DNA of 64,000 nt from Hygrocybe punicea (lineage: Eukaryota; Basidiomycota; Agaricomycetes; Agaricales; Hygrophoraceae): positions 6,386,001 to 6,450,000 of the forward strand of contig OY744465.1 in assembly GCA_963556145.1 (NCBI GenBank). The letters run 5' to 3'. The notes beneath the pieces are model-generated. The model did not search any database and was not told the DNA's origin. It saw only the letters and a list, made by a program, of their open reading frames with translations. Shown one piece after another: positions 1-59,258 of this stretch (position 1 is the first letter of the stretch; each line of letters opens with the position of its first letter). Position numbers and translations under genes: made by a program.

Positions 1-502
1 TAGTGATAGAAGCAAACACCTAGAACACATGTAAGAAAGTAGATGAATCATACGTTAGACACAACTCACAGACGGAATATGGCAATAATGCCTCGAGGCA
101 GTGACGGCAGTGAATGCCTAGAATACATGTGAGATGGCCGAGCAATTGTGAATAAGAGGCCACTCACCGACGAGATGTGGTCAACTTGCAATGAAGGTGA
201 ATTCATGCTGCATACAGATAAGAATCAAGACTTGACGAAGCCTCAAAAACGCACAATGTCGACATTCCGACACAACATGTAACTTTTCTGCTGTCTTGGG
301 GCCAAGTGGAAGGCACTTTGGCACTGTAGAACGACGACAATTATCATCGCGATTCAGGAACCAAGCGCAAATTCGTGACATGCACTGCCAAAGTTCCAAG
401 GAGAGGGAGCCATACACCAACTGGTACATCGGACAGGATTTGGGAGAAGAGGTGTACAGCTATCGAGAGTAGGAATATCAACAGATATTGGAAAGCTTGC
501 AT
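1..502 (-). CDS. Small signal-peptide or membrane gene of Helitron A (partial at window edge)
   Basis: Multi-exon gene on the minus strand starting at ATG 502. Exon 1 begins MQAFQYLLIFLLSIAVHLFS, a hydrophobic N-terminus typical of a signal peptide or membrane anchor, followed by DVPVGVWLPLLGT. The copy C gene (start 50475) begins MRAFQYLLIFLLSIVVHLLS and shares the downstream exon order, with short introns ending in TTCTAG. The gene lies downstream of gene 1 in all three Helitron copies. I recognise no domain, and later exons run off the left end. The function is unknown; exon boundaries are inferred by comparison with copy C. Confidence 0.5.
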
Positions 503-1210
503 TTTTTATCGGAAGAAATTGTATGTGCACGCAAAGTGTGTAAATAAAACTCCGCTCCGCTGCCAGTACGCTCATTATGCAACAGGCAAGCACTGGCAGT
601 GTCGTAAATCTGGGTGCAAACCCTGATGCTGGGATTGGACCACTTTGTTTTGTTCTTATAAACGAGGTAAATTTCGTTTCCATTGATTACCTACTGACTA
701 CAAGACCAGTCAACAGCGATGGCGAGCAGCAGAATGACCAAACTGCAAACCCAGAGGCCTGATGCTGTGGGATGCTTTGAAGATGTCGCTTATAAACGAG
801 CAGCAAAATGTCCAAGTCAACGCCGACCCGAATGCAAACACTGATGCTGAGATTGGGACCACACTTTGCTTCGTGTATTAATGAGGGAGTATGCTGCGTC
901 AATCAATATGCCATTGTTGTGGATGAGGTACGCAGCAACACTTCGTGAGATTGATGCGAGAAATATTCATCCAGAGGCAGGGGACAGTACGTCGTTCGCC
1001 AATACGAAAACGGTCAACCCTCCTACGTAGGGCCTTACCCTATGGGTTTTTCAATGATGAGCCATCCTGACGTTGAAATTTTCTATGGCCAAGGGGCGGG
1101 TGCACCCTCGTCATCACCATACGCCATACCACTAACTTATCAAGGACAATTCTGAAGCCCTCAGCCTGAGCAACCGCCACCTTCCGCCTCTTCCTCTCCC
1201 ACACCTCATT
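503..1210. other. Helitron A spacer between small gene and captured fragment
   Basis: No supported gene. Part of the stretch (around 670-730, minus strand) resembles the region upstream of the copy C small gene near 50085-50115 and 50300-50340, including a TTGTAGT core and a following TGGAAACGAAA. This marks it as element sequence rather than host DNA. Confidence 0.4.
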
Positions 1211-1690
1211 TTGGTTCCTCCTCACCGACAATTAATCCTGAACCCATCTGTTCATCGAACACCGGAAGCAAGCACGTCAGCGACAAGCCTGTTGTCCATC
1301 GTCATTATCATCCCAACCCCCCCTCACGGATCCGGGGTTGGCAATGTTCCATCCGATACTAGTCACGATGAACTATGGCAGTTTTTGATCAGCCATTGTC
1401 ACCATTCCCGAAATCACGAAGCCAGTCAGACGAATTCTTGTCCTGTGGAATGGTGTCTATCTTCCTCATGACATGCTCGAATTGTGCGTTTATTCATTTC
1501 GAGACCGAGGCATATCCGCAAGCTGCAATTTCCCGTTTTGATGGCCTGCCATTGCGTATCGGTGATCTGCATCGTCTGTGCATCGTATGTCGAGTTAGAA
1601 GAAAAGATGATGACCTGAAGGCTACGGTTGGTGCTCAACGGGGAGTGGGTATGCACAAACGGTGGATCAATAAGAACCTGCAATACTTCT
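1211..1690 (+). pseudogene. Captured fragment of an RRM/YTH-family-like RNA-binding protein
   Basis: Broken plus-strand coding remnant. It reads VGNVPSDTSHDELWQF around 1335-1385, then SNCAFIHFETEAYPQAAISR around 1473-1535, then CRVRRKDDDLKATVGAQRGV around 1588-1650. This succession (a GNVPSD opening, a CAF.HFE RNP1-like strand, a CRVRRK.DDL tail) is what I recall from the RRM region of fungal YTH-domain (YT521-B-like) proteins; the family name is from memory. Frame changes between the segments and the absence of start, stop and the YTH domain show a fragment. It lies inside Helitron A between gene 1 and the small gene, opposite in strand to both. A captured host exon set is the simplest reading. 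Copy C has a NACHT fragment at the same place. Confidence 0.5.
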
Positions 1691-1945
1691 GGTGTTTCAC
1701 CTTCTGGTGTGCCGAAGATTCTATCGAGCTCTCCCTGACGTCCGTATCGCTATCCAGCGTTGTTCCCCACTAGGAGGAGCCAGAGAGGAAGATAGGAACA
1801 AAGTTGTTGTGGGAGCAGTGGTTGTTATCGACCGACTCATGCACCATTCATGATGATAGAGACGGGGCCACAGGGCCAATGGTTTTCATAGCAAAGACAG
1901 GCGTACAGTTTAACAAAGACATAATCAAGGCCTACGAAGTTATTC
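1691..1945. other. Spacer downstream of gene 1 in Helitron A
   Basis: No gene recognised. This is the 3' flank of gene 1 (minus strand), shorter than 300 bases. Confidence 0.3.
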
Positions 1946-4569
1946 CTACACCCCAGGAGCAGTAGCAGCGACACCCAGTAAGATTACAAACTGGATATTG
2001 GAGGAAAGTATTGTCATCCCAGATCGCTCACCAAAATAAGTGCTGAGTGTATAACCGACGGCAACTACGGAATGGGCAGGAAGGTCCCGAACACCCTTTC
2101 TGTACAGGGGGAAACTCGACAGATTCTGGAAATCGTCACCCGTGAAACAAAAGGCACGACCCATCTTAGCACGGCCATCGTATATCGGGACTGCAAAAAA
2201 GTTCAGGTCAAGAATGATGTCAACAGGTAGATAAAAAAACGATGAGTACTTCTCTCTTCAAAACCGCGCGAAGCTGGATAGGCACCCCGCCCTCTTTCAC
2301 CATGAGTTCCTGACATGAAAGAGCTGGTGACTGTCATAAAAAGGCCACCCGATTTACTTGGAGATGCGGGAGCACTCGCAGCTGTAAAAGAAAACACAAA
2401 CAATAAATAAACAAGAAAAAGTAATGCAACCCATGCTTACGTTGCCTCCGCGTGAGGAAGGATATGCCGAAAGCAGATACCGTGCCAGATATCACCTCAA
2501 AGTTGAACAATTTACCCCATAGAGAGGTATCCCTATGCATTTCTTGCGCGAAGGGAGCAATAGTGATCTTGTGAACGGGATACGGCGCATTCGCAGAGCC
2601 TCCAGAACCCTCCTCTATAAGAAAACACTCGGTTATGATGCCCAACATAATCCCGACAGCATTACTCTTGGTATCGGCAATCTTCAAGCGACGCGATTCT
2701 ACAATTAGATAATCGGGATGGACTCTGCTGGTGTTGACGAAAGAACCAGACTTGACGAAAACGAGACCTTTCAAAAGAGAGCTAAAGCAGATGTCAAGAT
2801 AATTTAAAATGATTAAAATCAATGGCGTACTTGACGGAAGACTCAGAAAGAATCTTGACAAGATTTGAAAATGTGACACGAGGTGATCCAATGTCAGCAT
2901 TGACCGAGAAGGGCTGAACATCACAGAAACGGCTGTAAAAGGTCTATCGTATCAGACAGTATCACAACAACAGATAAACAGATACATACCTGAGAAATGG
3001 GAGGTTTTCGTATATCTTGTACAATGCCGGGTCCTGCACATCCCTGGACATCACTGCATGACTCGCGTCATCATCTTCGACACCACTGGCTGCATCACTG
3101 GCTGCATCTGCAGACGAAACAGAAGAATTGCCATCTCCGCCAAGGCTTATATGGCACTCATTAGTGGCAATGTTTTACATAACCAATGGACCTCACTGAC
3201 AGGCCGGTATTCGGTGCACTATTCTCGGGCACCACTTCTGAGGCAGACACAGTGTCCGATTCATTTCCATCAATATCTATGGCATTGGACCTACGCAAGC
3301 ACACATTACACGAATGGCAGCAGCATCAAAGTTGTGTCGATATACGTACAATGGTATATCTTCCTGTTTGACCTTTACGACATCACCAGATTGGGAGGCG
3401 GAAACCTTTTGGAAAGAGGGAGCAACGACTTCCTCAATGCTGCTAGAGACTGGTTACCGAAAGGACAGCAATATATGTAAAGACTTACAATATTTCCCCA
3501 GGCGAAGTTGACGGGGGAGCAACTTGGACCTCCATATCATCAACAGTTGTATCTGGGACCTGGGCCAACAGCTTGCTAGCTTGCGACGAAGTGACCGAGC
3601 GCCTTCAAAAATATCAGGACAAGAGCAGGGTGAGGAAATTATAAAACTCAAACGTACGGCTTTTCATTCATGTGAGCCTTCTCAGTCTTAACTTTTGTCC
3701 GGCTACAACACATGAAACCATAGAATAAATATGTCACAGGAAGAGATACTACCTAGAACGGGCTCTCGTAGGGGAAGGGGAGATTTCAGGGTGTTTATTT
3801 TCTGAGCTGAAAATGACACTCAGTAATTAGAAGTGGAGGCGAAAAGTGACGATAAATTTACATGAAGGGAAGTTCTTCGGCCTGGCCAGGTATATCCTTT
3901 GCAACCGAGCGCTTGCCCTTGGGCGTGGACTTTCCTTTGGTACTCACAGCCTTGCCCTTCATGAGAGGCGACCTGCACATAGTCAGTAAGAAGTAAGACA
4001 TGCGAAGTGGCCTTGAACCTTATTATCTCCTCTGTAGATAACTCCGACAACTCGGCATCGCTACCAAAGGAGACGGAAGAGCTTATGCCAAGGAGTGCAG
4101 CATCAACCTTTGCACTGAGTGGTGCAAATAAGTCAATATACAAATGTTAGATAAACAGAATACGAACGAGAGCGAAACGGCTGGGAGCTGAACATAATCT
4201 TCAGAGCCTGGGGCAGGGACAGGTCCCCTCTTTTTTTTCACGGGAATTTCTGACTTCTCCATAACCTAAATATGATATAGTAGTATGCTAACGGTAGACA
4301 TCAGATGAAGATACGAACGTTTCAGAATCGGAAGGAACGAAGATCGCTTGTGCCTTACGCTTAGTTTGGCTGGACCCGGTCAAGTCGAGAGCAAACATAC
4401 AGACAAGAGGAAGAACTTACCGAATCGAAGTTGGAGACTGAGGCGGAGCTACACCTTTTTTCATAGATTTGGCAGGAGAACTAGCAGCATAAACACTAGC
4501 CATTAGATATAGAGTCACTGCAGAAAATACCAATGCTAACCGTTTCGAGGTGGAAGTTCAGGTAGACAT
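1946..4569 (-). pseudogene. Helitron accessory gene 1, copy A (early stop at codon 4)
   Basis: Multi-exon minus-strand gene, homologous along its length to 46595-49015 (C) and 38125-40666 (B). The N-terminal part is Ser/Lys-rich and low in complexity; it includes SPAKSMKKGVAPPQSPT (around 4440-4490) and an acidic motif VDAALLGISSSVSFGSDAEL (around 4035-4110). The conserved C-terminal part holds GLVFVKSGSFVNTSRVHPDY and EMHRDTSLWGKLFNFEV, and ends VVAVGYTLSTYFGERSGMTI..IQFVILLG. The first exon reads ATG TCT ACC TGA, where copy C has MSART, so a CGA codon has become TGA at codon 4. A downstream start cannot be excluded. The family is unknown to me. Its divergent partner is gene 2 at 5559. Confidence 0.7.
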
Positions 4570-5558
4570 GGTAGGTTGCAAAGTTACGGTTGGGAGTTGA
4601 GGCACGCAAACTGCACAAAACGTTGGGAGACTTATAGTAGCAGCGTTAGCGCAGCCCGCCAAGAAGGATGACAACTGCACAACTGCATTGAGGCATGCCA
4701 TGAACACCGCTGGAAGTCACAATAACACCACAGTAGTATCGAGAGAAGCGCAATGGTCAACTTCAATGTCACCCAAACATGGCAAAAGCGGTGAATTTTA
4801 GGACTACTGGCTGGACATCATGATAATAACCTCTGAGACAATCCTCTCAATTCATGTGCTGTTCTATGCTCTGACATTATGGCATTTCCATAGGACCAAA
4901 ACTGTGATCAATGGCAACACCGTTCCATTCATTTACGACTGAAAATTGCAAGATCCCATATCAGCAACTGATCCGCAATTGTAGCCAACATGTGTGGACA
5001 GGTAATTAATACTATCGAAGAGCGGATATGTGAAACACGTACTAAATCAAGAACAATGGCTCCCAGCAAAGAGATGGCGATGGGTTTGTATCAAGCGAAG
5101 TAGAACTGGGACCCGAAACGCACACGGCAACGTCAAGAACTAGATCCAAAAAATAATAAGAATCTATGGTGGACAAGACAAACAACCTTGTGAGTGGCCT
5201 ACAGCAGAATATGCATGGACACATACTGAAACAACATAGAAGAGAAGCCATGGATTCAGCAACGATCTATCAAGTGGAGCTCGGACTCAGGCTGAAACCC
5301 GGTGCATGAAGCAAAAGCGGCAGGTACTGCGACACATGAAAGTAAATACTTATGGCAATTTAGACACATAAAGCAACACCAACCTCGTGTGCCATGAGAA
5401 AATTGCCATGGCACATAGCGGATGAGCCGGAGTCAAAATATGTCTTTGAAGTGGCAAATGCAAAGGAACCTGGTCCCGAAGAACCGAAGAAGGAATATAT
5501 CGGCTGCCTGTTGCATGATAAGATATGCACGCAAACTCCCCGAAAGTCAACCACTGCG
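4570..5558. promoter_or_regulatory. Divergent intergenic region between genes 1 and 2, copy A
   Basis: 989 bases separate the two start codons. The spacing is similar in B (865) and C (847), so both genes probably share a bidirectional promoter. A short block containing GGCATGCCATGAAC (around 4692) has a near match in copy B (ACATGCCATGAAC, around 40844), which may be a shared control element. No other gene is seen here. Confidence 0.45.
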
Positions 5559-6757
5559 ATGGACCAAATGTACGACCTGCAGGGTGCGAGTGAGTGCAAT
5601 ATGCAGGATACAAAACTATACGAATAATTGATCCTTACCTAGGCAACGCGTTGGAAAAACTTGCATCTGAGCAGCCGGATAACCGTCAGCTGGCCAAAGC
5701 AACAAAAGTGGGTAATGACCAAACAGCAACTGTGACGCAGAGTTGTGTGACTCACGCACCACACAGACAGCAGATTGGGCTCGTCGAATAAATATAATCA
5801 GCATGGACCGGCCACCAACCTGGCGACTCATTGACGTGTCAACTGGAGATGGTAACAAGGAAAATGGTGGGGCGATGGAGGAGAAAGTTTATACAGTCCA
5901 AGGCATTGTGTGTGGAATGGTGCTTCCGCCTCTATCGGAAAAGCCTTCGTGAGTAGATACTTATGGATATCCAAACTGAAATTGTACCTTCTGACCATTC
6001 CAATAGTGTAACACCAGCACACTAGAAGTTCATTCGGCAGAGTCTTTCGATCACTGGTGCTGGAACGCCAACCTTTGAGGAAGCCGTGAAGGCAGCGCAA
6101 GAAATTTATGTGCAATATCATCGGCAATTCCCTGACGGAAAGCTTGAGGTTTGGAGCGCTGCAACCTATGCAGGGCATCACGCCATCAATGTTTCAAACC
6201 GATATTTCACACCAAGGAGAGACGCACCAGAGGTGGAACATATACCATTTGGTGAAGCCGTTGATCCCCATGGTATTCTGGAGGATATGGCCAAGTCTGG
6301 CTATGTACATGGGGAGGAAAATCACGTCCAGTATTACATATTCCACGTCGATGAACAAGGGTCCAAGAGGTACTTGGTGCAACTTCAAGGAATCGCAGCC
6401 AACTGACAAATAAAATTACATAGCTACGAAAACACCAAACCGCAGACGTTTCGCATTGGGGATATTGTCGAAATCCAGCTGTCTTTCGTTTGTGTTCCAC
6501 TCAAAGGCCAAAATGTCAAGATGTTGACGGTTCTACATTCAATTGCATTGCTCGACAGTACATTTACTCAGGTACGAGACGAGTTATCCAAAAACATAAA
6601 TTACATGTTAAAACTAGAGGATCAGGATGCCCTGCGGAAACATATGATAAAGCCTACTATCCAGGCCAAGCTAACGCTCAAGCGGAAAGTAGGCTATGAG
6701 GACACTACCCAGGCTGCAAAGAGGCAAAACCTAGATATAATGGAAATCGGAGAGTAG
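5559..6757 (+). pseudogene. Helitron accessory gene 2, copy A (one in-frame stop)
   Basis: Multi-exon plus-strand gene starting MDQMYDLQGA, with introns of roughly 55-65 nt. It contains DWARRINIISMDRPPTWRLI, EEKVYTVQGIVCGMVLPPLS, SLSITGAGTPTFEEAVKAAQ, RDAPEVEHIPFGEAVDPHGI and GDIVEIQLSFVCVPLKGQNV. It ends in a basic tail (LKRKVGYEDTTQAAKRQN) before TAG at 6755-6757. At the start of the exon beginning about 6007, copy C reads VNPARYKF but copy A reads VTPAH-stop-KF (TAC to TAG), so this copy is probably dead. I recognise no known family; the GDIVEIQ.SFVCVPLK segment could be a beta-rich fold. It is head-to-head with gene 1. Confidence 0.7.
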
Positions 6758-6792
6758 GACTTAGTACGATGTAAAACGAATGAACACAAGAT

Positions 6793-7146
6793 TCATTGTA
6801 CCGTGATTGCGGGACGAAACGCCTCCAAATGCAATTCCGTTGTTAAAAAGTCGTGCAGCGAATTAAGCAACTGAACGGTTTGTCGACTCTGTCGCCGGTG
6901 ATTCGAGAATTCCGCGAATGTACTCGTACACAAGAACATAAACTTCAGAGACTGTCTGCAAATAGCGGACTTGCCCTGGCCAGGACCAGAAAGCCTGCAA
7001 ATGGGGTGACCACCACGATCATCTACCCATTCAACGGCCTGTGCAAAAACCTGCTCACGAGTGCCTTTCTTGTATCGGGAGACTGGTCCAGCACAATTGT
7101 AGCCGCCCTCAATGATAGGTAGGATCCAGCTGTTCCAGAATTGCAC
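6793..7146 (-). pseudogene. Captured NACHT/STAND NTPase fragment
   Basis: Minus-strand remnant with KGTREQVFAQAVEWVDDRGG followed by HPICRLSGPGQGKSAI and RRQSRQTVQLLNSLHDFLTT. The order (KGTRE..WV, then a P-loop GKS, then RR...TV) matches the N-terminal NACHT region of Agaricomycete STAND proteins. The P-loop is one residue short of the usual GPAGSGKS form and the fragment covers only about 100 residues. It lies in Helitron A between gene 2 and the 5' end. A captured host fragment is likely. Confidence 0.55.
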
Positions 7147-7354
7147 CAGTAAGCAGAACGTAAGTATGGAAAGCTTCGATGTTAACGTTGTATCGCACCA
7201 ATCTCAGGTTGGAAGTAATCGTGGATCTAGTCTCGAGCAACACAGGCCACCTGCAATGCAGTCGGGTCAGAACAATGATAGCGCCAACGACACTCGAAGA
7301 AAGAACTTGACATATAAAAACCGACAAGTGTGGCTGCAGCAAGTCTAAGACAAA
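7147..7354. other. Helitron A 5' interior next to Plavaka insertion
   Basis: No gene seen. This is the continuation of Helitron A on the far side of the Plavaka transposon; it joins to 13684 once the transposon is removed. Confidence 0.4.
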
Positions 7355-7394
7355 CATCAGCAAATCAGCATTTTGTCTGAGAACACTGAGAGAC

Positions 7395-7480
7395 CTGAAA
7401 TTCTCTGAACCATCTGAACCATTTCTGAACCATCTGAACCATCTCTGAACCATCCGAACTGTCTCTCTGAACTGTCTGAC
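7395..7480. repeat. Left subterminal repeats of the Plavaka element
   Basis: Six to seven short units of the TGAACCATC / TGAACTGTC type in direct order. They are probable transposase-binding sites near the terminal repeat, as is usual in CACTA-type elements. The right end has degenerate counterparts (GTCTGAACC, TCTGAACTGTCTG). Confidence 0.6.
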
Positions 7481-7529
7481 GTGCAAAATAAGATATATAA
7501 TATATAATATAATTAGATAGAAGTGGAAG

Positions 7530-10500
7530 TTAAAAGGCAATCTTGTTCGCATGATGATCAGCAAACTTGTTAACGTAGTATGATCGGAAGGCTCCCAGTG
7601 AATTTGAAAAGGTGATATGACGAGGAAGGAACTCCTCCCCAAACACCGGAACAAGCAGGGCTCCTCGCAGAATGCATTCAGTATGAATGACAGCTTGAAC
7701 TGGTGTCCCATTGTGATCCCGGTCCGGCTCAACAATCCACATCCCAGTATCTTCACAAGGGGCATCACCAATTGTAGAAAACCACTGCACTAATGCACAT
7801 GGGTATTGCTTCGCTTCGTGAGTGAACCTAAAGAAGAATCGGACACGGGCAACATGCAAGCTATGCATTCCTTCCAGGTCTGTGTCCTTTGTGACGAAAA
7901 TACAGTCATTCTGCGGCACGCCACCATACCAAGATGCCGTTGCCCGAATCCTCTCACAATACATGCCCCCAATCCCAGATGGGTCACTGGGCGCATAGAA
8001 CTTAGCAACTGCTGACGGGACAACATAAATGCGGCTTCGAATGAGGGGACATTGGTCAAGGTCCACTTCTGCTCCAGGTAAGATAGCATCCGGGTGCAGT
8101 TGATCATAAAGGAATCGGCGCATGAGCTCGGGGAGCCCTGGAAGGTCAAGTTGTTCTATGAGAGAATGCAGCTGACGAGGATACTGAGATTTGGGTGCTG
8201 CCAACGAAGTAATTAGTTACCGAAATTTGCCTTCAGCCAGGAGATTACACACCCGAACGAATTGGCAAAGTAACTTCTGCAGAAACATGGGGACCCAGAA
8301 CAGCACCCGCATCAGCACCATTTAGTTGAACGTCCAGCGGGACCGGTGTAACCTCAGTTGGATCTGGAGGACGACCACGAATGTCAATGCCAAGCATCCC
8401 TCGTTCCATAAAATCAACACGAGATGCGGCCAATTTATCAAGCCACTGATTGGTAAGGAGCATTTGCCCGAGTGCTTTGTGATGACTTGAACGGCGCCAA
8501 GGTTCCTTGACGGCTTTTATGTGTTTAGACTCTGTTATCGATGAGCAAAGTCCATTGAGTGAGCCGAACTGCTCAATAACCCATTGATAGTGGACCAAAG
8601 AATGCTGCCTCGGCAATGAAATGCCATCTGGGCAGACACCCTCAACCTCAAAGATCACTCGATCACGATGAAATCGGGCAAGGGCATCATCCACAGCTGC
8701 TAAGCTTGCTTCTGTATGGACAGAACGGCGAACGAGGTAGCAGAAATCTAGAAATGCCGCTATTGCCCGAACCATTTGGGCAGGTACATGGCTGGCAATT
8801 GCAGGGAGATATACCTGAAAAGGAATATTAGCATAAACCGCTCATTGTTAGACATTGTACAGATACCTTCATAAGGGCCTTGGAACCGTCTCCAGTCCAT
8901 TGTGCAAAGCCTCGGCCCTCTGGGAAACACCGTAAGCCAGGAAAAGGTGGCACAGCAGCAATCATGAGTCAATAATGGGACATTAGCGGCAAAAAAATAA
9001 AATAAATGGAAAATGTACCGGCGATCAATGTCAGCCAAGATTCTAGCCACGCCAGCTGCACCATGTTTGATTTCTAGATACTCATTGACCCAGGTGACCA
9101 AATGGTCCTTAAATGTGCCCTTAATGACCTGGTGGAGAAGATTGGATGTAATAAGTTCATGTATGTCGGCGCGAGGGAAGGATGCTGTGAAGGGCTGGCA
9201 ATAATTTTGAGTTAGCATGCCATGGAGGTCAAGATAAGAAGGTGAATGCATACCATAATGTCGCCAACTACACCAAAGTCCTTCCACAGCACTTTGAGAT
9301 CAAATTCCTCGATAAGCACAGCTGAGTAATCTTGGGTGCGATGGAGGCCTTCGCCGTCCAGATTCTCTGGTATAGCTGTGCATCTTGAGTTGATACAAGT
9401 CAGTATCCGACTGTGCAGAGGAAAATCACCAACTTAACATACCTTGGGCACCAACCCTGAACGACACATGAAAGAAGTACTTGCTCGGGATAATCCGCAA
9501 TATAAGGGCCAATCCCATATACTACTCGACGATAATGACCATCGGGACACAGCGTGATCTCTGGTGTAGTCATGCCTGAGCGGAGCGGTTCCAATATTGC
9601 GGCCAGAGATGAATGAAATAGTTGACGGCGAAATTTCCGAAATGTTGGGTCGGCCTCGTATTCCTTGTCCGCTATAGGCAGGTTCTGTCAATGATCAACA
9701 CATCTAGTTTGGATCACGTACTTTTGGGTATGGCAAGAAATCCTAAAATAGAAACTGCATTTCGGTGAGCGCGTCGGGTACTGCTGTGGACATTCCCCAA
9801 GGAAGCATACAGTGGGTAATATTGAATGTTCCCTGTACCAACCGATACCGTTGTCTTATCGCTGCCCAATATAATCGGAACAAACATCGCTCCATGGGCA
9901 TCATCAGATTCTGCAATAATATCCTGAAAATGGCATGTTAGCATGGAATTCAGCTGGGAAAAGAAACCACACACCGCCTGACGCCAAGCCCAATTACCAG
10001 ACATCAGGTTTGTCCACCTCTGCTTCCCATTCTCATCGAAATCTTGATATGGTGCATAATCGATTTCGTCTTTGAAATCTGGGTTGGCGAGTTGGTTCTG
10101 GATCACCAGACGTGGATTGCGGTGCCATACTTCATACTCCGTAGTCATCCATGGTGGGATATTATCGACAGGTTGTCTGCCAGCATATGAGACGGAAAAT
10201 GAGTCCCATGGCGCATTCCCGAGAGTGGTTGAGTCAATCAAGTCATAGAGATGCTTTTTGCAAGTAAAAGGTGGGGTACCACTGTGGTTGGCCCACATGT
10301 CCATGAGATCATTAATCTGTTCTCCTGGCATCTGGTTTCGACGGAAAAGAAAGTCTGCAATCTCAAATTCAGAGCGAGATGCGTAAGGTGAAAAGTCATT
10401 AGAAGATTTATTCTCCGGAGTTGGTGGCATAAGAGAATCAAGGTAATTTCCATTCCTTTCACAAGAGATTCCTGGATAATCTGTTAGGAAAATAAATGAC

Positions 10501-10778
10501 GGTGCTTAGAGGATGTACGTACCATCAAGAATTGGATGCCGCTTGTGGGAGCCTGAATTAGGAGTGAATGATTCCGAGTCTCCATCTCCGTGCCAGTTCT
10601 CATCCATAAACTCTCAGTTGGCATCAGTCTGAATGGGTGGAGATCGTCGAGGTTGTTGTAGTATTGGAGGATGAATGGAATTCTTATGTTGCGTGTAACC
10701 AGAGCGGTTTTTGAAACTCCTGTTCTTGCCTTTACACAACCCCAGGTTGCAAAAAAATGTGCGAGATTGAGCTGACAT
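7530..10778 (-). pseudogene. Plavaka transposase
   Basis: Multi-exon gene on the minus strand. Exon 1 starts MSAQSRTFF and includes a C2H2-type finger CNLGLCKGKNRSFKNRSGYT..H....H typical of Plavaka N-termini. It continues with FSPYASRSEFEIADF, a WANHSGTPPF region, NPDFKDEIDYAPYQDFDENG, and the core motif MFVPIILGSDKTTVSVGTGN (around 9830-9890). Next come the FTASFPRADIHELITSNLLH region and GLCSSITESKHIKAVKEPWR (around 8500-8560), then the C-terminal part ending at TAG 7530-7532. These motifs are diagnostic of Plavaka as I know the family. An in-frame TGA in exon 1 (after PPIQTDAN, near 10614) suggests the copy is inactive unless that stretch is spliced out. Confidence 0.8.
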
Positions 10779-10890
10779 GTTGATGGCAGTACAAGACGGA
10801 GTGGCAACTACAGTTGAAGGCGATGGCCCCAGGCCAGTTCAAAGTCCCTGGATATAGGACTTTAAAAACAAAAATAAAAAGTCGAACGAC
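10779..10890. promoter_or_regulatory. Divergent promoter of the Plavaka gene pair
   Basis: About 110 bases between the transposase start (10778) and the companion gene start (10891). It must hold both promoters. No clear TATA box seen. Confidence 0.35.
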
Positions 10891-32740: not shown

Positions 32741-32749
32741 CTAAAACAC

Positions 32750-43178: not shown

Positions 43179-43344
43179 TATTTAGGACTCGGTCTTAATG
43201 TGGACCGAGCTCCCCAAGAATTTTAGCCAGCCATCTATTCTTGCGGCAAATGCCGCTATTTGTTTGGCTTTGTTCCGAGTCCCGAATGTCTCTAAGTTAT
43301 CTGTTTATGTCTCTAAGTTAACTGTTTACCCTTCGCCGCCGTCT

Positions 43345-45747: not shown

Positions 45748-46594
45748 CGCTTTCCAGGTGCCTTTTCCCCACACGTCCGTCTTATGAGTCCCATCATTCA
45801 TGGGTCATGGATCATGCCTACTTCCTTCTTTCGGACCTTAGGTTGTTGCCTTGTGCCATTCAGCTGTTAGTAATGCCGCCACAAATTTTACTTAACACTT
45901 CTTACCATCTTATTTTCATATAGGGTGCCAGTTCAGAGCTCTACTGTCAACCTGAAACACCGTCTTTGTTGCTGTTTCTGTGTATCCGCGCTTTCGTTTC
46001 TGTTGTTGGCCTGGCCCAAATTGCCTGATACATCCTTTCCATCCATTACCGCCTCTTTGTACTTGGGACTTTGCTTCTGAGTCCTGTGCTGTGAGTCTCG
46101 TGTGGTTTCCCTTAACCACGCACTAGCTCACTGACCGTCGTTTGCCATGTCGACTGCACTTCTTCTGCGGATCAGTTTTCCTACTGCTACTAGTACATGT
46201 CACAGTCCCTGCGAGTTACTATTCTCACTATGGATGCTGAGGGTATTGGGTAGGACAAGGTCATGGGATTGTGTAGTGTTGTGGTATTATATGTCGCCAT
46301 TGCATATCAAGAGCCTGAGGGGCAGATTTTTTTGTTTAATACCGCCGTAACCACGTGTTCTTCCGCGTTTATTTAAATTTCACGGTCGTTTCAGCTGGTC
46401 AGTGGCATTATTGCATCCAACGGCATTCATCGCACATCTCGGTGCATTCTTGAGATGTTTTGGCATTTCTCAAGTAAGTATTCATCATCATTTACTGCGG
46501 ACCGCACTGATTCAGCCTCATATAAGTCCACCAGCCCGCTTGGTATTCCCTAACACTCCTCAATCTCTCTACATCCCAAAATCTTTCGATCTAC
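45748..46594. promoter_or_regulatory. Divergent intergenic region between genes 1 and 2, copy C
   Basis: 847 bases between start codons, probably a shared bidirectional promoter. No conserved gene inside. Confidence 0.45.
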
Positions 46595-49015: not shown

Positions 49016-49389
49016 GTGGTGGACTGTTCTTGTAAATATGTTGTCTTGTTGTGTTTCAGTCTGCAATGCCATCCCGTCCATTGTGTATGATTTTACCTGA
49101 TCCACAGGTAAAGAACTGAAAGCATCATCTAGCCATTAATATTTAGCCAAAAACAAAACATGGTTGGCTTGCCTTCGCGTTGTCTTTAAAGACTTTGTAA
49201 GTGTCTGCCCGGTCGTGCCGAATTCAGCTGCGAAGCGGATAACGGATGGAGATTCAAGTAAGAACACATTAGGTTCAGTGAATAACTCACTCGTGGACGT
49301 ATTTACAGTTCTCAGAGTCCTGTGGAGTTCTCGAGAACGCAGGCCTCACATCAACTACACCCAATTTGGTCCATTCAGCGAGGTCGTTG

Positions 49390-49815
49390 TCAGAGTACAA
49401 ATAATCCGCATGAGGTGAGCTGAAAAGGATTCAGGATGAGCTCGTCAAATTGACGAGATTGCGGCACAGATGCAAGGCTACGATTGTTTTCGAGAATCGC
49501 ACTGATATGTTCTGCCAGATCCTTGCTAAAGTCCAGTGAGGTCACGTACGATGGTGCTGAAAAACTTCTGAGGCCAGTTTCTATCCGGGATGTCTCAGTC
49601 AAAGAAGACGAGGCAAAAATTCCGGCCTTGTGGCAGTCGTGAGTGACGGTGTGCGCAATCGTACTCTTTCCTGCGCCGGCCACATCAGACAAGAAAAATA
49701 TTTCTGCTGACTTGGTACCATCAGCTTCGTTGATCCCAGCCTGTTTGAGTTCAACATAGCCGCTGAGAAGCGACGAGAGGGTTATGGGTTTATGGAGGGG
49801 GAGAGTAGCGGCCAT
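49390..49815 (-). pseudogene. Captured NACHT NTPase fragment in Helitron C
   Basis: Minus-strand open stretch with EIFFLSDVAGAGKSTIAHTV (P-loop GAGKST intact), then CHKAGIFASSSL and LAEHISAILENNRSLASVPQ. These follow the order of a NACHT/STAND NTPase domain. Downstream NACHT motifs and any repeat domain are missing, so it is a fragment. It lies antisense between gene 1 and the small gene and is a different fragment from the one in copy A. Confidence 0.65.
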
Positions 49816-50474
49816 AGCAGACGATAAAGTGACCTAATTAACGGCCGATAACCTATCAGCCTGAGAGCTCAAATGTATCAGCCAAACATACCTGGTGTTC
49901 GTGAGATAAACTGAAGTGCGGGGGGCTCCGAGTCGGTGGACATCACGGGATTATAAGGCAAGCTATTGAGAAAATTTGATCAGTTTGATCGATTTCAGGA
50001 CAAATACCCACATCACCAGATAAGCACGCGCCATCGCCCCTTCTGGCAACTAAAATTCTGAAATGGCATTGATGCTGCTCGCTGTCGTTGTTGACCGGTT
50101 TTGTAGTCACAGGGACTGGTACTTACATTGATTGGGGCGGCGCGGATCTATCTTGTCGCCCACGTTATCATGGTTCACGGTTTGCCCGTCGTTATGGTGG
50201 ACCATTGGACCTTCCCCTTCACACTGGACGCCGTCGTCTTCGCTGGCCATTGTCGTTAGCTGTTCAGATTCCCCCTGCTGGGCGTTGCCGTCCGCTGTTG
50301 CCTAGTTTTGTAGTGAGTAAGTAATCATTGGAAACGAAAAGCTACGCCATTAATCCCGGGTAAGTAGAGGGCAACATAATTGGATAGAGGGTAATTGATA
50401 GAGGGTAATCAGAAACGATACTGGCTGCGGAGTTTGTTTAGACTTTCGCTCGCTCAATTCTCCTTGTTGCAAAA
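49816..50474. other. Helitron C spacer upstream of the small gene
   Basis: No convincing gene. The 50085-50345 part resembles copy A near 660-730 (minus strand), so it is ancestral element sequence. Confidence 0.35.
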
Positions 50475-51240
50475 ATGCGAGCATTCCAGTATCTATTGAT
50501 ATTCCTACTCTCGATAGTTGTACACCTCTTGTCGCAAATCCTGGCCTATGTGCCAGTTGGTGTACGGCTCCCTCTCCTTGGAACTCCAGCGGTGTAAGTC
50601 AATTTTTTGGACTTTATTCCTGCATCGCGATGATGTTTGTTCTACAGCGCCAAAGTGCCTTCGAGTTGGCCCCAAGGAATTCCACCCAAGTGTGTTTTTC
50701 CTTGATATTTGATACACGTCGTGTTTACTTATTGACAGCAGAAAAGTTACATCTTGGGTCGGAATGTCAACATTGTATGTTTTTGAAAATATTATTGCTT
50801 CGTCAAGGCTTGATTCTTATCTGTATGTAGTATAACTTCTCCTTCAGTGCAAGTGGACCACATCTCGTTGGTGAGTGGCCTCTTATTCACAGTTGCTTGG
50901 CCATCCCACATGTATTCTAGGCATTCACCGCTGTCACTGCCTCGAGGCATTATTGCCATATTCCGTCTGTGAGTGGTGTCTTACCTATGATTCATCTACT
51001 TTCTTACATGTGTTCTAGGTGTTTGCTTCTATCACTATTGCTTGCATTGATTATCTGACTGCGTATGTTACTCTCTTCAATTTTTTTTGGCTTCATTAAC
51101 CTGTGATTTCTATTTCATGCCAGTCATTTGCTGTGGGTTGACGGCAACCTGACTGTAAGTGGTCTCATATTCAACACATGCTTCAGCTTGCTCATATGTG
51201 TTCTAGACATCCACTTTTGTCACTAAATCGGGGGCGTGTT
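50475..51240 (+). CDS. Small signal-peptide or membrane gene of Helitron C
   Basis: Exon 1 from ATG 50475 encodes MRAFQYLLIFLLSIVVHLLS and continues ILAYVPVGVRLPLLGTPA, a signal peptide or anchor. At least five short GT..AG introns follow, most ending CATGTRTTCTAG or similar. Later exons read VFASITIACIDYLTAHLLWV then DGNLTTSTFVTKS. Copies A (start 502) and B (start 33474) have counterparts. The 3' limit is uncertain because the Rep gene begins at 51258. No domain recognised; secretion or membrane location is inferred only from the N-terminus. Confidence 0.5.
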
Positions 51241-51257
51241 CTCCCTGGAAATGTCAC

Positions 51258-54200
51258 ATGTCACATTTCTGTATAGTGCCTTCATGCATGATGCCCATGT
51301 CTTTTAACCCTTGTGGTTGTCTGTCTTCATGCAAACCAAGCATGTCTACTGTCATACATATGTCTACTGTCAAACACATGTCTACTGTCACACATATGTC
51401 TACTGTTCTACACATGTCTACTGTCATCCAAATGTCTAGTTTGAGCCCCACAGCTCTTACATTTCTTGTACCCTTCATGAGTCTTGCTCCTGTATCCCCT
51501 GATCCTTGTTTCAGTTTACCTACTTCTGCAGACAGGAGTGCCATATTTGGGATCCATAATTTTGTTCAACATGCTGAAGTAAAAAATGCATTTGTCACTC
51601 ATAGTGCATATAACAAAGGGTGCAATGATATTAATAGTGATTCAAGAGAGTCTGCTGGTATATTCATGGTAGACTCAGCGACACATCATGCTTTTCACAT
51701 GACTTCTTACAACATGCTCCATATTAATACCATACATAAGACGTCCAGGTCTTGGGTGGTGCAGTATATTTATGCAAGGTTATACTTCTGGGTAATTCAA
51801 CTTTATGCCCTACCCAAGCAGAATATTGCAGCTACATGTCACACTCTATCACTTATGATGCAACAAAATAAGATGTCACGTCATGACTTTCAAGCATTGC
51901 TTTTCCTTTCAAATTCACCCTCAAGGATTGCAATGCTGCGTAAGTATAGTCAGAAAGGTGTAATCTCTCCTTTGGCTTTGATACATTGTCATATCATTGG
52001 CCTTCAACTTCCTGCAAGTCTTAATCTACACTGGCTATTTATTGCACATGATATACTGTCTATGCTGAGATGTCTATCAATTCACAAGGCTTTGCATCTA
52101 TATTCATTTTCACTGAAGCCACCTTGTAACTTCTGCCAAGTTCAAAAACAAAACACCAATTCCTTGTCTATTGAGAGGATAAGATGTGGAATTAACACTG
52201 TGAATACAGCTCCTGTGGGTGGTGGCAGGTCTCATATATTTCCTGCCAATGCTATAGTTCCATATATAACAAAAGGTAGAGATCATGTTTATCCCAACTC
52301 AGTTTATTTGTTTGTCAACTACATTGATAACTCTGATCTGGTGTCTTTGCCAGTAGAGCAGAAGTTTATTCATGCCAATGTTCCATTGCTTGACATCATT
52401 CCGCACTTACCTGGTCACATGGTAATTAAGATTGCACAGATTCACAACATTACTATTGGTTCTCATGTGCCAAAAAAACATATGACTTCCTACTTTGAAA
52501 ATCACAGATGCATTAATTGTAATCTGTATGCTAGCATATTTTCTGTTATGTTGAGCCCAGCAAAGAAGAAACAGCAGCAAAACACAAAGCATGTAACTTT
52601 GTCTGAAAAACAAATTTTTGTTCAACGTCAAAGGAAGCACAAAAATTATGTTGCCAAAAAATCTCAGCAGTGCAGCCTCTCTCCTGCTGAGCAGCATGTT
52701 TTTCCACCTCCACCTTTATCTTCAGAGTTAGCTCATACTGTTGTGTTTGACTTTTGTTGTGAGTCAACTCCAAGCATATTTGAAGAGTCAGGATGTGCAG
52801 TGTGCGGTGAGCTAGTACCATTAAATAATTTAAGCCAATTGAAAAGTATAAAAGGCATGCTCAACATTCTTGAAGCTCCAGGGATGACAAGAATTGAACG
52901 GAAGAAATCAACAGACAAGATTTGTGAATACAAAGGGCCTGTTTTGGACTATAAATGCAACAAAATATGTGTTGAGTGTCGAAAATCTATTAGAAATGGA
53001 AATGTTCCTAAACTTGCTCTAGCTCAAGGACTTTGGTTAGGGAATGTTCCCAAGGAACTTGCTGAGCTTCGGTTTGTGGAAAAGCTACTTATAGCTCGCA
53101 TCCGTCACAACTGTTGTTTTGTACGAGTTGCTTCAGGAATGAGGAAGATGACATCACATGTTGTTGCATTTCAATCACCCATTCCAAAGATATACCAGGC
53201 ACTACCTCCACCTGTTGATGATCTCGATGATGTCTTAGCCATTTTATTCACTGGGCCTTGTAAGCCAACAGAAAAGGACTTTGAACGAACACCCTTGCTG
53301 GTACGAAGGAACCATGTTGCAAGGGCACTTGAATGGCTAAAGCTCAACCACATTGACTACCATGATTTGGATATATCTTATAAGAATCTTGCTGAATATC
53401 CTGAGGATGGCCCACCTGTCTCCGTTGAGTATCGCCATAGAGAGACAAATAAAGTACCAGAGGGTACAAGTGTATTTGACCATGAAGATGAACATGGTAC
53501 TGAGCATGGTGACTGTCCATTCATTGTTCATGGATTGGCTGGTGAGGATCTAGACACCAAGACAATTAACTCACTTAAAGGAATTGCACTCAGGCATCTG
53601 AATAATGGTGGTAAGATGTTGGCAATTGGTCATTCTTCTGAATATGTGTCTATTTACCACAATCCAGGAATTTATCCACAGATGTTTCCTTGGCTATTTC
53701 CATATGGATTGGGTGGCATAGGTTCTACTTCCTTGTCTGATGCAGAACACAAGCGACATCTTCTGATGTACCATGATAAACACTTTCAAACAGACATATA
53801 CTTTCCATTTGTTGCCTTTAGTCATGCTCAAGTAAAGGCCAGCTCAACTGGTGGTTTTTTGCTTGCAGACAAGACAAAATTTCATGAAATATCCAACCGT
53901 CTGTTGAATGTTGATCAAACTGTCTTGTCTTCTTTGGCTAAGAGATTGTCAGAGGGAGAAGTTGTGAAGCCAGTTAGTCAAGAAGAGAAAGATTGTTACC
54001 AAGTAGTCCGAGACTTGGATCATGTGGGAGCTAAAGTGAGTGGATCTACTACAAGCAAGAAGTATATGAGAAATGAAATTTGGTTCTTGATCTCTTACTG
54101 TGGTGCACCCTCATGGTACATTACTTTATCTCCAGCTGATGTCAAGCATCCAATTTGTTTATACTTTGCAGACACAGAAGAAAAATTCTATCCAAAAATT

Positions 54201-57200
54201 AGGTCAAGTGATGAGTGAATTTGTCTTATTGCAAAGAATCCAGTGGCTGGTGCACGTTTTTTCCACTTTATGGTCCAACTTTTTATCAAACATGTGTTGG
54301 GTGTGGATAATAATCATCCTGGCATATATGGTGATACTTCTGCTTATTATGGCACAGTTGAGCAACAAGGACGTCTCACATTACATCTTCATATCTTGAT
54401 TTGGATTCGTGGTTGCCTGACACCACAAGAGATCAGAAAGCGGATATTGGATCCAAGTTCAGATTTTCAGAAGAATATTGTTGAGTATCTAGAAAGTACA
54501 CATGTTGGTGAATTTCTTACTGGACCACAAGAAGAAGTGTTGAAAAATATCAATGATGCTTCATGTTCCACAGATTATTTGGATCCAACACAGACTTTAC
54601 CAGAACCACCCCCAAAGCAATGTTCTAAAAAGTGTGGCAAATGCAACCAATGTCAAGATTTGAAAACTTGGGAGGATAAGTTTAAATCTGTAGTTGATGA
54701 TATTTTGGCTAAATCAAACATACATCATTGTTCCACCAACAGAAATAAAGATGGTTCTCAGCATAAATCCCGGCAGTACGTTGGATGCATGGATAATAAG
54801 TGGGGAAAATGTAAAGCACGATTTCCTCGTCCTGTATTCAACCAGACTGAAGTGGATCCTACAACTGGAGCTCTTAATATGAAGAAAGCAGAGCCAATGA
54901 TAAACACATTTACCCCTCTGCTTACATATTTATTCCGGTCCAACACAGATGTAACAAGTCTGAAGTCTGGAACAGCAATTAAAGCTGTAATACTTTATGT
55001 ATCTGATTATATTACCAAAATTGCTTTGAAAACTCATGTTATATTTGATACAATTCGAGCAATGTTTCAGAAGAACAGTGAAATGATAGGTGGTCATGAA
55101 ACTCAAAAGGAAAAAGCACGTCGACTTATGACAAAAATTGTAAATAACCTGAGTGCAAAGATGGAAATTGGATCACCCATGGCTTGCATGTATCTTTTAC
55201 GCAACCCTGACCATTACACAAACTTTCACTTTGCTCCATTCTATTGGCAGAGTTATCTTCATGAGGCACGTGAGGCCTGGAATCCAGACGATACCAGAGA
55301 ACATGTTGGAAAGGTAGCTTTAATCAAACACAGAGGTCACATTGTTGGATTATCACCTGTTTTTGATTATATATATCGTTCCTCTGAACTGGCAGGTATG
55401 TGCTTGTATGATTGGATAAGCCATTGTAAACGTGAAAAGCTTCCAAAATCTAAGTTGATTACAAAAGAAAATGGGGGTAATGTTGCTGATGAAAGCATAA
55501 TTTCCGATACATCTCATGTATCTCAGTATGATAGAGATGGGTCTGATACTGAAGAACAACATCAGACTGGTTTGTCTTGCGATCATTTAAAATCTGATGA
55601 AATAAATGACTCTGTGCAGAAAGTGGATGAAAAGACAGAGACAACTTCTCCTGCTGGCCTTTTTGTCTTTCTTGACAATCATCCACTTCACAAGTCACAT
55701 GCAACTCGTTGTGTGCAGAAGGAGAGTGCACAAATTCCAACATTTGTGGGAGCTACATTACCACGATGTGACCAAGGTGATCATGAATATTACTGTTCAG
55801 CAATGCTTGCATTGTTTCGACCTTGGCGCTCTGGATATGACTTAAAAACCAAAGATCAATCTTGGGATGAGTCATTTTTAAAATTTGAGTTTAGTCAAAG
55901 ACAAAGGGAGCTGATGGACAATTTCAATATAAAATATGAGTGTCTTGATGCACGTGATGACTTCCATGCACAGCTTCAAAAGGGTTCAGTGGTATTACCA
56001 AGTTGGTCTGATGATTATGATCTGATATTAAACCACAAACATTCAGAACAAGTACTTGATGACTTTCAGAACAACAACGAACTGGCAGAGTTACATGAGG
56101 AGTTCAATGCTGACTTCAATGAAACTGGTAAGCATGAGAAGAAACGTCAAGTTGACATGGCAACTATGCGAGCAGTAATGACTCAAACAGGTTGGACAGA
56201 GGCTATCCTTCTGAAGTCATCAGATATTCAGCTACCAGTACCTGAAATAATACAAACAGGGAGTCAGTGGAAAGCTGATGTGCAGAAGAAAAGACAAGAC
56301 CTACTTGAAAACAGAGTTGAAAACTTGCCAAGTCATGCTAATGAATCTCTAACATGCAAACAAGGCAATCTTTCAAGATATAACAATGTAAAAATTGTTG
56401 ATAAGTCATATCTTGAGCAAGGCTATCACTCTGGTATCTCTAGATCAACAATGGACAACATTGTGAAAGACTTCCAACTGAATGTAGAACAGCAAAGAGC
56501 ATTTTACATTGTTGCAAATCATGCATCCAATAGAAAATTTGAGCAATTGAAAATGTATATTGGTGGTATGGGTGGCACAGGTAAAACCCAGGTTTTGAAG
56601 GCTTTGGTACAGCTTTTTAATGTGAATAATGAAAAACACCGTTTTGTGATAGTTGCCCCTACTGGAACAGCCGCGGCTCTGCTAGCAGGATCTACATATC
56701 ATTACATGTTTGGATTAAATGAGAATTCTAGTGACCATATATCAAACAATCAGATTGCACAGTTGAAGTCACGATTACAAGGTGTTGATTATATTTTTTT
56801 TGATGAGGTGTCAATGTTATCTTGTCGAGATATGTATCGTATCAGTGTAAGAATGGCCAAAATTTTCAATGAAACAGAAGTGCCTTTTGGTGGATTAAAC
56901 ATGATATTTGCTGGAGACTTTGCTCAACTACCCCCTGCACTAGGACATGAACATGCATCTCTCTATAGTAGAACAGTTGGTGGCAGATCTACTAGCCACA
57001 CAGATCAGGAAGCTGCCATTGGAAAAGCCTTGTGGCACCAAGTCACAACTGTTGTTATACTAAGAGAAAACATGAGACAAAGACAACAGACAAATGAAGA
57101 TGCTCAACTACGACAAGCCCTTACAAATATGCGATACAAAGCTTGTACTCTGGAAGATCTTGTCTTTTTGCGATCACATGTTTCTAGTAATTTACCTGGT

Positions 57201-59174
57201 CGTTTGTCAATCAATGATGAAGAATTCAGACAAGTCTCTATAATCACTGCTCTCAACATTCACAAAGATGAAATTAATCGTCTTGGGTCATTGAGATTTT
57301 CAAAGGAGATAGGTCAGCCATTGACTGACTTTTTTTCTGATGACTCAATTCGTTCACAGGAAAGGCAAAAAAAGAGGCATTCATCTTGCCTTGTTGTAAG
57401 TCACAACACTACCATATCAGATAATGTTCAAGAGATTCTGTGGAATCAACCACATAGTTCTAACTCCAAATGTATACCTGGCAAACTATCTTTGTGTGTT
57501 GGAATGCCAGTGATTATTCAAAATAATAGTGCAACTGAACTATGTATCACCAGAGGTCAAGAAGGCACTGTTTATTGCTGGCAGTCTGCAATAGGTTCCA
57601 GAGGTCAGAGAATTCTGGATACTTTGTTTATAAAACTGCACAATCCACCACAGAATGTTAAATTAAATGGATTACCTGAGAATGTTGTTCCATTAACAAG
57701 GACAAGTGTTACTATTGATTGTGCTTTACCTGATGATTCTTCTATTACTCTTTCCCGCAGTCAAGTGGAAGTACTTCCTAATTTCTCAATGACAGACTAT
57801 TCCTCACAAGGAAAAACTAGGCCTAATAATCCAGTGGACCTTAACAATAGTCGTTCTCATCAGTCTTATTACACTGCATTGTCACGAAGTGCATCAGCTG
57901 CTGGTACAGTTATTTTGCAGGGATTTGATGCAAAGAAGATAACAGGAGGTGCATCTGGTGCATTGCGTCAAGAATTCCGTGAACTGGAGCTTCTAGATGA
58001 GATAGTTCATTTGAGATATGAATGTAAGTTGGACAAGTCTGTTGTTGGTGATCGCAGGAATTCACTGATACATACTTTCAGAAAATGGAAAGGAGAATAT
58101 TATGTACCTGCCAATGTGCACAAAGCTATTCGTTGGAATAAGTCTGATGTTTTCAATGTAGATTCAATTGTTGATATCCCCTGGAAAATTCTGGGAAAAG
58201 CCCAGAAGGGCCAAGAAGTCAGGACTTTAAAGTCACGATTTGTGCCTGCAGCAGGGACTTCTCCTGCCAAATTTTGTCAGCCATCAGCTGTCAAGAGAAA
58301 GGTCAGTGGCTCTCGAGTGGCACCTCAAAAGAAAAAAGTGAAAACTAATCATGTTGTTGATAGTCTTCCAACAACCTCTATTAATGTTCCTCAGGGTACT
58401 CGTTGGCACAATAACAGTTGTGCATATGACTCAGTTGTATCCATATTGTATGGTATCTGGCAAGATGACAGAACTCTGTATTCAAATTCTTTTAGAAATT
58501 TAAATGGTGAGTTTCTAGGGCTTTTGGTAGATGGTTTTTCCAGATATTATAATGGTGAGTACTCATTGGAAGATGTTTGTGATCTTTTGAGGCGTCATTT
58601 ACATCAGCATGCACCACAGAGTTTTCCATGGGGAAGGGACACTAGTGTTGATGCTATCTTATATATGTTGTTAGCAACTAGAACCCCTGTTCTTTCTTCC
58701 AACCTTTCTTGTCCTCAACGTCATCCTGTTGCTAGAGATCAATTAGCATTACTGAGTAATTGCAATATAAATGTTGGAGGGATCACTTCTGGATCTATCC
58801 AGAGTGACATTGATTTGTTTGTGAATGTCACTGGTTCAAAGTGCACAACCTGTAATGACTCACTACTCAGGAAATTCAAGTTTGTGTGTTCTCCTCAGAT
58901 ATTAGCCTATCCTGTGTCTGGTGTTAATATGACTGTTAACCATACCTTGGCAGTACCAGTTGAAGGACAGTTACACCAGTATTGTCTCAGAGGTGTTATA
59001 TATCATGGTAGTAATCATTTTACCACTCGTTTTATTAGTTCAGCAGGTCTTGTTTGGTTTCATGATGGAATTGCCACTGGGAGATCTATGGAATATGAAG
59101 GAATGTTAGATGATGTTGTCCTGACTCAATGCAGGTCAAAACAAGCAAGTATGTCATTGTATGTTTTGGTGTAA
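51258..59174 (+). pseudogene. Helitron Rep/HUH - Pif1 helicase - USP-like protease (copy C, one nonsense codon)
   Basis: Single reading frame of 2638 codons broken only by TGA at 54216-54218, where copy B has an Arg codon. Domains, counting through the stop: Cys-rich DUF6570-like region (about 505-690, ESGCAVCGELVPLNNLSQLK); Rep region from about 830, with HUH motif HLH at residues 1043-1045 and catalytic tyrosines YVSDY at 1247 and 1251; Pif1-type helicase with Walker A GGMGGTGKTQ from 1769, Walker B FFDEV at 1847-1851, FAGDFAQLPP and YTALSRSASAAGTVIL; then a USP-like cysteine protease domain with NNSCAYDS (Cys 2388), His 2587 in YHGSNHFTTR and Asp 2603 in WFHDG. The product nicks, unwinds and transfers element DNA in rolling-circle transposition. 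One reversion or stop readthrough would restore it; as it stands two partial proteins of 986 and about 1650 residues could be made. The start codon is uncertain (several in-frame ATGs). Confidence 0.9.
51343..51433 (+). repeat. 18-bp tandem repeat in the Rep gene 5' region
   Basis: About five to six copies of ATGTCTACTGTCANACAC-like units encode repeated MSTV.H. Copy B has degenerate equivalents (32440-32510), so the repeat is ancestral and may belong to an untranslated or leader region. Confidence 0.7.
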
Positions 59175-59227
59175 GTTGTATATAATAATCTCATGTCATA
59201 CAAATTTTTTGAGTAGGACTCGGATAT

Positions 59228-59258
59228 GCCGTGCAAAGCAATGGCCCTCTAGCTCAAG
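59228..59258 (+). repeat. 3' terminal hairpin and end of Helitron C
   Basis: GCCGTGCAAAGCAATGGC (59228-59245) forms the hairpin; the 13 bases after it end CAAG at 59258, followed by target T. It matches Helitron B base for base except at a few positions. CTAG occurs six bases before the end. Confidence 0.8.

Follow-up and report, generated by a model that had tools for sequence, protein, structure and literature searches.

What are additional genes doing inside a rolling-circle transposon, and do they belong to it at all? This question is raised by a stretch of 64,000 nucleotides from the mushroom Hygrocybe punicea (contig OY744465.1, hereafter C7, positions 6386001-6450000; the window) in a genome of 92.2 Mb assembled in 42 contigs. 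The window holds three related Helitrons, copies A, B and C, with a 5′ end TTCCGAGTCC that forms a hairpin and a 3′ end CAAG. The original prediction had described such elements with a reversed gene 2, followed by gene 1 and a Rep-helicase gene in the forward direction, and this arrangement was borne out. We consider it probable that these are Helitron2-type elements carrying a virus-type gene pair for single-stranded DNA (ssDNA) binding that serves transposition. Positions given without a contig name are those of the window.

How far do the elements extend? Copy C, with 16,098 bp, has the size of about 16 kb that had been expected of all three; copy A measures 23,748 bp and copy B 26,328 bp. 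Copy A (1..13791 in the window, minus strand) has its 5′ end fixed by a copy on C33 that starts at the same base in an unrelated flank. Its 3′ end lies left of the window at C7:6376044, and its Rep gene was found just left of the window on the minus strand, where it had been predicted. Copy B (16851..43178, minus strand) is complete end to end, with both ends exact to one base, and sits within the 5′ hairpin of copy C, severing the first 18 bases of C (16833..16850, plus strand) from the remainder (43179..59258, plus strand). When the two parts are rejoined, 74-76 of 77 bases are identical to six other 5′ ends. In this one resolved insertion event there is no target duplication, and B therefore came in as a single unit, both ends included. 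The cut was made between A and T or one base on, one T not being placeable. A start of copy C at 43273, as first proposed, is ruled out, since 43273 is an internal second TTCCGAGTCC. A second 5′-like end (TTCCGAGTCCTAAATGTATATTTAGGATCGG) at 13967-13976, 185 bases outside copy A, also occurs at another locus (L006) and is probably the end of another subfamily.

To which kind of Helitron do these copies belong? The 5′ end (TTCCGAGTCCTAAATGTATATTTAGG), whose 10-mer occurs five times in the window against a shuffle mean of 0.07, forms two hairpins within its first 55 nt (z -5.6; 0 of 200 shuffles equal). At the 3′ end (GGACTCGGATATGCCGTGCAAAGCAAYGGCCCTCTAGNNCAAG) the expected CAAG is present, but the hairpin proposed there is a weak fold (-5.7 kcal/mol; z -1.1 for 43 nt, with 28 of 200 shuffles equal, and -2.4 for 34 nt, with 6 of 200). 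The two ends form an asymmetric terminal inverted repeat, in which TCCGAGTCC at the 5′ end is matched by GGACTCGGA, beginning 43 bases ahead of the 3′ end; GGACTCGG inside the 3′ end is the 5′ end inverted. The 3′ end of copy B (16851..16893, minus strand) consists of the GGACTCGG repeat, a hairpin and CTAGAACAAG, and that of copy C (59216..59258, plus strand) of the GGACTCGG repeat, the hairpin GCCGTGC..GCAAYGGC and CTAGCTCAAG, followed by T. The base preceding 20 left ends is A in nine, G in seven and T in four. The termini of Helitron1, 5′ TC and 3′ CTRR, were not found as such: the 3′ end is CTAGNNCAAG, with CTAG six bases inside, and the 5′ end TTCCGAG can be read as TC if the first T, a base that cannot be placed, belongs to the target. 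PF14214 (Helitron_like_N) and PF05970 (PIF1) were detected in the two Rep frames of copy C, and PF05970 in copy B; an endonuclease domain, as in Helentrons, had no Pfam match in the two frames of C or in two scanned frames of B. Classified by their termini, the elements are non-canonical, Helitron2-type rolling-circle transposons. The FoHeli1-5 elements of Fusarium resemble them in having a Rep-Hel protein, an asymmetric terminal inverted repeat and a 5′ hairpin; FoHeli1 and FoHeli2 insert between TNAT and T, and here T follows 31 of 31 distinct right ends bearing the motif (PMC5148889).

The typical complete element consists of the Rep-helicase gene and, upstream of it, a divergent pair, gene 2 in reverse and gene 1 in forward orientation. 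In copy C these are gene 2 (44578..45801, minus strand; six-exon model, 326 amino acids), gene 1 (46595..49015, plus strand; multi-exon, start placed by eye) and Rep (51207..59171, plus strand). Copy A has gene 2 at 5559..6757 (plus strand; 312-amino-acid model with one stop at the edge of the main exon) and the multi-exon gene 1 at 1946..4535 (minus strand), which is secure only in its C-terminal exons (1952-3138), its frames being conserved among A, B and C. In copy B, gene 2 (41532..42740, plus strand; 299-amino-acid model with one stop in the main-exon match), gene 1 (38125..40666, minus strand) and Rep (16996..32740, minus strand) take the same order. The models of genes 1 and 2 in the three copies are homology-guided and approximate; they fed a search profile and entered no count. 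That of gene 1 in copy A includes exons of a single base, which are implausible, and for gene 1 of both A and B the N-terminal half of the model cannot be relied on. Gene finding by codon bias, with Rep as the training set, gave no usable models for either gene.

Are genes 1 and 2 parts of the element or chance neighbours? In the genome searches the best candidates were scored (40 of 101 right ends, 150 of 731 Rep matches and 150 of 353 gene 2 matches), and the genome-wide counts are therefore lower bounds. Left-end matches numbered 22; once both ends of B are included, a right end of the same orientation is found within 32 kb for 14 of 23 left ends, and gene 1, gene 2 and Rep are all enclosed in 11 of these 14 elements. 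The remaining three are C7:6461711, with a remnant of gene 1 and without gene 2, C6:7404055, with Rep alone, and C34:4554015, without gene 1; a constant gene set, as had been proposed, is thus not supported. Two regions of C35 (1042050-1097010 and 1191476-1232723) are built alike: each contains two right ends and an element with a left end that is inverted with respect to its genes. They look like a segmental duplication.

The same linkage is seen from the genes themselves. At 45 gene 1 exon loci, gene 2 lies upstream on the opposite strand in 37, Rep downstream on the same strand in 33, and both in 30; the strand-flipped control gave 0, 1 and 0, and random placement, for which contigs C2 and C39 were given guessed lengths, gave means of 0.22, 0.57 and 0.13. 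In family 1, that of the window, the best 51 gene 2 matches are adjoined by gene 1 in 37 cases and by Rep in 34, so most gene 2 copies sit in elements and not mostly outside them. The best 68 family-1 Rep matches have gene 1 upstream in 33 cases and gene 2 in 34, which means that many Rep copies lack the pair. No stop interrupts the gene 1 exon at 38 of the 45 loci, or the gene 2 exon at 43 of the 51, A and B being among the eight with a stop.

Does the pair persist where the elements have diverged? A second family (C1:1678000-1703000), starting with TTACGAGTCCCTATAAGGG, contains homologues of genes 2 and 1, which diverge in the same order, together with extra frames and a Rep 43-48% identical to that of copy C. 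The best 40 of 1366 left-end candidates, the query among them, have a rounded identity of 100% over 2.2 kb from the TTACGAGTCCCTATAAGGG start, a very recent Helitron burst. One copy has another copy's 5′ end close behind it and contains a palindromic stretch of about 710 bp. A third lineage (C6:2299000-2318800) has the same order and an open Rep frame of 1757 amino acids with 47-53% identity. The divergent pair is linked in 49 of 56 gene 1 matches of family 2, which were chosen by eye on identity and frame length, and in 44 of 55 of the third lineage, with none when strands are flipped in either. For the third lineage, the best 150 of 345 and the best 150 of 281 candidates were scored, and the top 57 and top 55 of the two match lists were assigned to it. 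Among the matches listed, its pair is linked to Rep in 5 of 55 cases, compared with 4 of 55 after flipping, and the evidence for that linkage therefore comes from the one locus on C6. The pair thus moves inside the ends of the element and has been kept in at least three diverged lineages.

The 112 exon matches used for the third lineage lie, on every one of 13 contigs, in a single block no longer than 0.47 Mb (two matches only on C7). The 82 Rep matches that remained after the best 68, of 64-68% identity, share those regions, 78 of them lying within 0.7 Mb. These 13 blocks are putative centromeres. The divergent pair may have a fourth lineage, noticed at C34:2202271-2205376 and C41:173864-176971, where the divergent arrangement is seen at 2202271/2205038 and 173864/176633; this group, with frames of about 211 amino acids for gene 2 and about 145 for gene 1, was excluded from the lineage counts. 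Beyond Hygrocybe, homologues of genes 1 and 2 occur in Infundibulicybe, Lyophyllum, Hypsizygus, Tricholoma, Phlegmacium and other mushrooms. Matching contig sizes for gene 1 and gene 2 homologues in Infundibulicybe gibba (P0002/P0009, 246716; P0047/P0018, 74917) and Phlegmacium glaucopus (P0048/P0024, 279338) suggest that the two genes are linked in these species too.

Is the pair maintained, or merely carried along? Between A, B and C, ratios of nonsynonymous to synonymous substitution rates (dN/dS), pooled over 194 codons of gene 1 and 227 codons of gene 2, are 0.11-0.15 and 0.11-0.13, respectively. Synonymous divergence (dS) is about 1 or higher, the dN/dS of single exons lies between 0.07 and 0.31, and two exon comparisons are saturated. 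The gene pair is under purifying selection. Gene capture is common in Helitrons, HELPO1 of Pleurotus ostreatus has cap genes of unknown function (PMC4289320), and elements without the pair exist, all of which would suit captured host genes or fragments travelling as passive cargo. Such cargo would hardly be expected, however, to keep its order and orientation in three diverged lineages, to show the low dN/dS just given, to have its best family-1 gene 2 matches mostly in elements, or to have, for gene 2, a predicted fold like that of viral ssDNA-binding proteins, and we regard this explanation as very unlikely. The original proposal that both genes are parts of the element is strongly supported by linkage, pairing of ends, dN/dS, the several lineages and the nested copy B, and none of the results named in advance as contradicting it was obtained.

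The two halves of an element need not share one history. The second half of Rep has a dN/dS of about 0.22-0.23; its dS is 0.25 between A and C against 0.87-0.89 between A and B and between B and C. In the gene 1-gene 2 half, A and C differ by a dS of 1.2-1.4, which is not recent, unlike their Rep half; elements thus seem to recombine as modules, and A and C seem to be mosaics.

What do the two genes encode? No convincing family match was obtained for gene 1 or gene 2. The gene 2 sequence found nothing better than E 1.1 in the PDB, and no family of ssDNA-binding proteins (SSBs) among its Pfam or PHROG matches; known members of the T7-type SSBs share only about 15% identity (PMC5686142). The structural model of a gene 2 homologue, with a predicted local distance difference test score (pLDDT) of 88, has as its best matches bacteriophage T7 gp2.5, the Enc34 SSB and CP312R of African swine fever virus (ASFV), with a clear drop from ssDNA-binding proteins to generic OB folds. 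In a viral structure library it matches mostly giant-virus proteins. It shows an OB fold in which a long helix follows a strand (E101-107, H112-129), as in T7-type SSBs, whose OB fold has such a helix directly behind strand 2. We take CP312R and many giant-virus proteins to belong to the gp2.5 group. An acidic tail is no clear hallmark of gene 2, with 12 of 21 C-terminal tails more acidic than basic. Gene 2, including that of copy C, is therefore predicted from the fold of a homologue to encode an ssDNA-binding protein of the T7/giant-virus type.

The case of gene 1 is weaker. The model of a gene 1 homologue, from which the architecture of gene 1 in copy C is also taken, has a long disordered N-terminus and a C-terminal OB-like domain with pLDDT mostly 70-90. 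Matches of this domain are weak; its first 11 VIA entries, of five protein kinds, and its first seven Foldseek rows are all ssDNA-binding proteins or relatives of DUF2815, from which a virus-type, SSB-like fold is predicted with less assurance than for gene 2. Genes 1 and 2 as sequence paralogues were dropped, hhalign giving no match, and none of 56 pattern matches for gene 1 relatives in viral contigs was confirmed. One may suppose that gene 2 alone is an SSB and gene 1 an unrelated partner with a generic OB resemblance, a reading that overlaps with ours and differs for gene 1 only. The uniform character of the top C-domain matches and the pLDDT of that domain speak against it, and it appears rather unlikely to us. 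At E ≤ 1, no RPA family was among the Pfam matches of the aligned homologues (33 of 36 for gene 2, 13 of 13 for gene 1); OB_MEIOB_N appeared in a single gene 2 member (E 0.14).

How could such proteins serve a Helitron? Rolling-circle transposition exposes ssDNA. Under the reading that we prefer, Rep would nick the 5′ end of the element and the helicase would peel one strand away; the two SSB-like proteins may then cover and protect the peeled strand, or a circular form of it, and assist Rep and helicase. Binding of ssDNA by the two proteins, their partnership and their role are what we infer from the predicted folds and the linkage. An OB-fold pair might instead serve the element by transcript binding, regulation of Rep, protection from silencing or blocking of host defence. 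A shared fold is no proof of function, the N-terminus of gene 1 is long and disordered, and fungal transposons carry TET/JBP genes for which an anti-silencing role is proposed (PMC12730594). Yet the nearest folds of gene 2 are specifically ssDNA-binding proteins, separated by that clear drop from generic OB folds, and ssDNA does arise in this mode of transposition, so a role other than that of a replication SSB seems unlikely, more so than gene 2 acting as the only SSB.

Are there precedents? Extra genes in fungal Helitrons had been thought unprecedented, but the cap genes of HELPO1 (PMC4289320), an open reading frame of FoHeli3 (PMC5148889) and the TET/JBP genes (PMC12730594) precede them. 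HELPO1, too, is an agaric Helitron whose extra genes have no known function; unlike genes 1 and 2, its cap genes are placed downstream of RepHel and differ between subfamilies, and capB adjoins RepHel in several basidiomycetes (PMC4289320). FoHeli3 is described as having an extra frame that lies upstream of the transposase in the opposite orientation, contains no known domain and is confined to Helitrons, and no RPA-like gene is reported for FoHelis; the present elements differ in having two conserved extra genes, lengths of 16-26 kb in the window and the termini TTCCGAGTCC..CTAGNNCAAG (PMC5148889). Plant Helitrons with RPA genes (PHRPA) resemble them as rolling-circle transposons with a long-term ssDNA-binding protein gene of their own, here a predicted one, and SSB acquisition is thought to have occurred at least three times; unlike the plant RPA homologues, gene 2 has a gp2.5-like/giant-virus fold match and no RPA domain was found (PMC4683698). 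The gene pair would thus be an element-encoded counterpart, of viral type, of the plant Helitron RPA genes. T7 gp2.5, Enc34 ORF6/DUF2815, counted among T7-type SSBs (PMC5686142), and ASFV CP312R share the fold predicted for gene 2, which has no detectable sequence similarity to them and is encoded by a eukaryotic transposon in a divergent pair. Literature searches, with poor coverage of subscription papers, found among the papers listed none linking gp2.5-type SSBs with Helitrons and none containing both DUF6570 and Helitron.

Other features of the three copies are as follows. Rep is broken into several frames in A, B and C, and longer open frames exist in other copies. In copy C it comprises two frames with one stop between them and carries DUF6570, Helitron_like_N, PIF1 and a C-terminus without an assigned family. 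In copy B, DUF6570 and PIF1 are present and the gene is split by stops and a satellite-bearing insert at 21.4-29.1 kb. Tandem arrays of 168/179-bp repeats (22952-27875) and 82-bp repeats (21783-22939) lie in this region, and copy A has a different insert of 1.9 kb at nearly the same point of Rep. The Rep C-terminus (58389-59171 in C) contains a Cys/His segment, NNSCAYDS ... YCLRGVIYHGS(N/D)HFT, conserved in all three copies. By eye it looks cysteine peptidase-like; the protease named in the original prediction is nevertheless unsupported, the segment having no Pfam match and no sequence match among solved structures. The small hydrophobic gene, predicted for every copy, is well matched between A (first exons, 1..502, minus strand, translation starting MQAFQYLLIFLLSIAVHLFSQ, continuing left of the window) and C (50475..51070, plus strand, starting MRAFQYLLIFLLSIVVHLLSQ, end approximate), with 83-89% DNA identity over 50471-51037 of C, but the sole candidate found in copy B, at 33226-33546, is weak. 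Copy A also contains, at 9717-10505 (minus strand) between its 5′ end and gene 2, a frame for a Plavaka transposase (PF18759, E 2.3e-57). Inside copy C, a frame at 49393-49833 (minus strand) has a P-loop (SDVAGAGKSTIA), with AAA_16 and NPHP3_N as best matches, below cut-offs.

Where might the pair have come from? Tentatively, and with somewhat more doubt than belief, we envisage that an ancestor of agaric Helitron2 elements gained an SSB gene of giant-virus type, or the reverse, and with gene 1 added a two-part SSB core to the rolling-circle machinery, which was kept across lineages whose Rep proteins are about 43-53% identical, one of them specialised for putative centromeres. If true, a replication module would be common to large DNA viruses and a eukaryotic transposon. 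The findings hint that giant viruses and transposons have exchanged genes, and the clustered lineage raises the question of Helitrons in mushroom centromeres. The pair provides a structural marker for recognising non-canonical Helitrons, and two families of mushroom 'hypothetical proteins' gain a testable role. The findings also suggest that Helitrons acquired SSB-like helpers independently of RPA, which would support protection of ssDNA as a limiting step of rolling-circle transposition.

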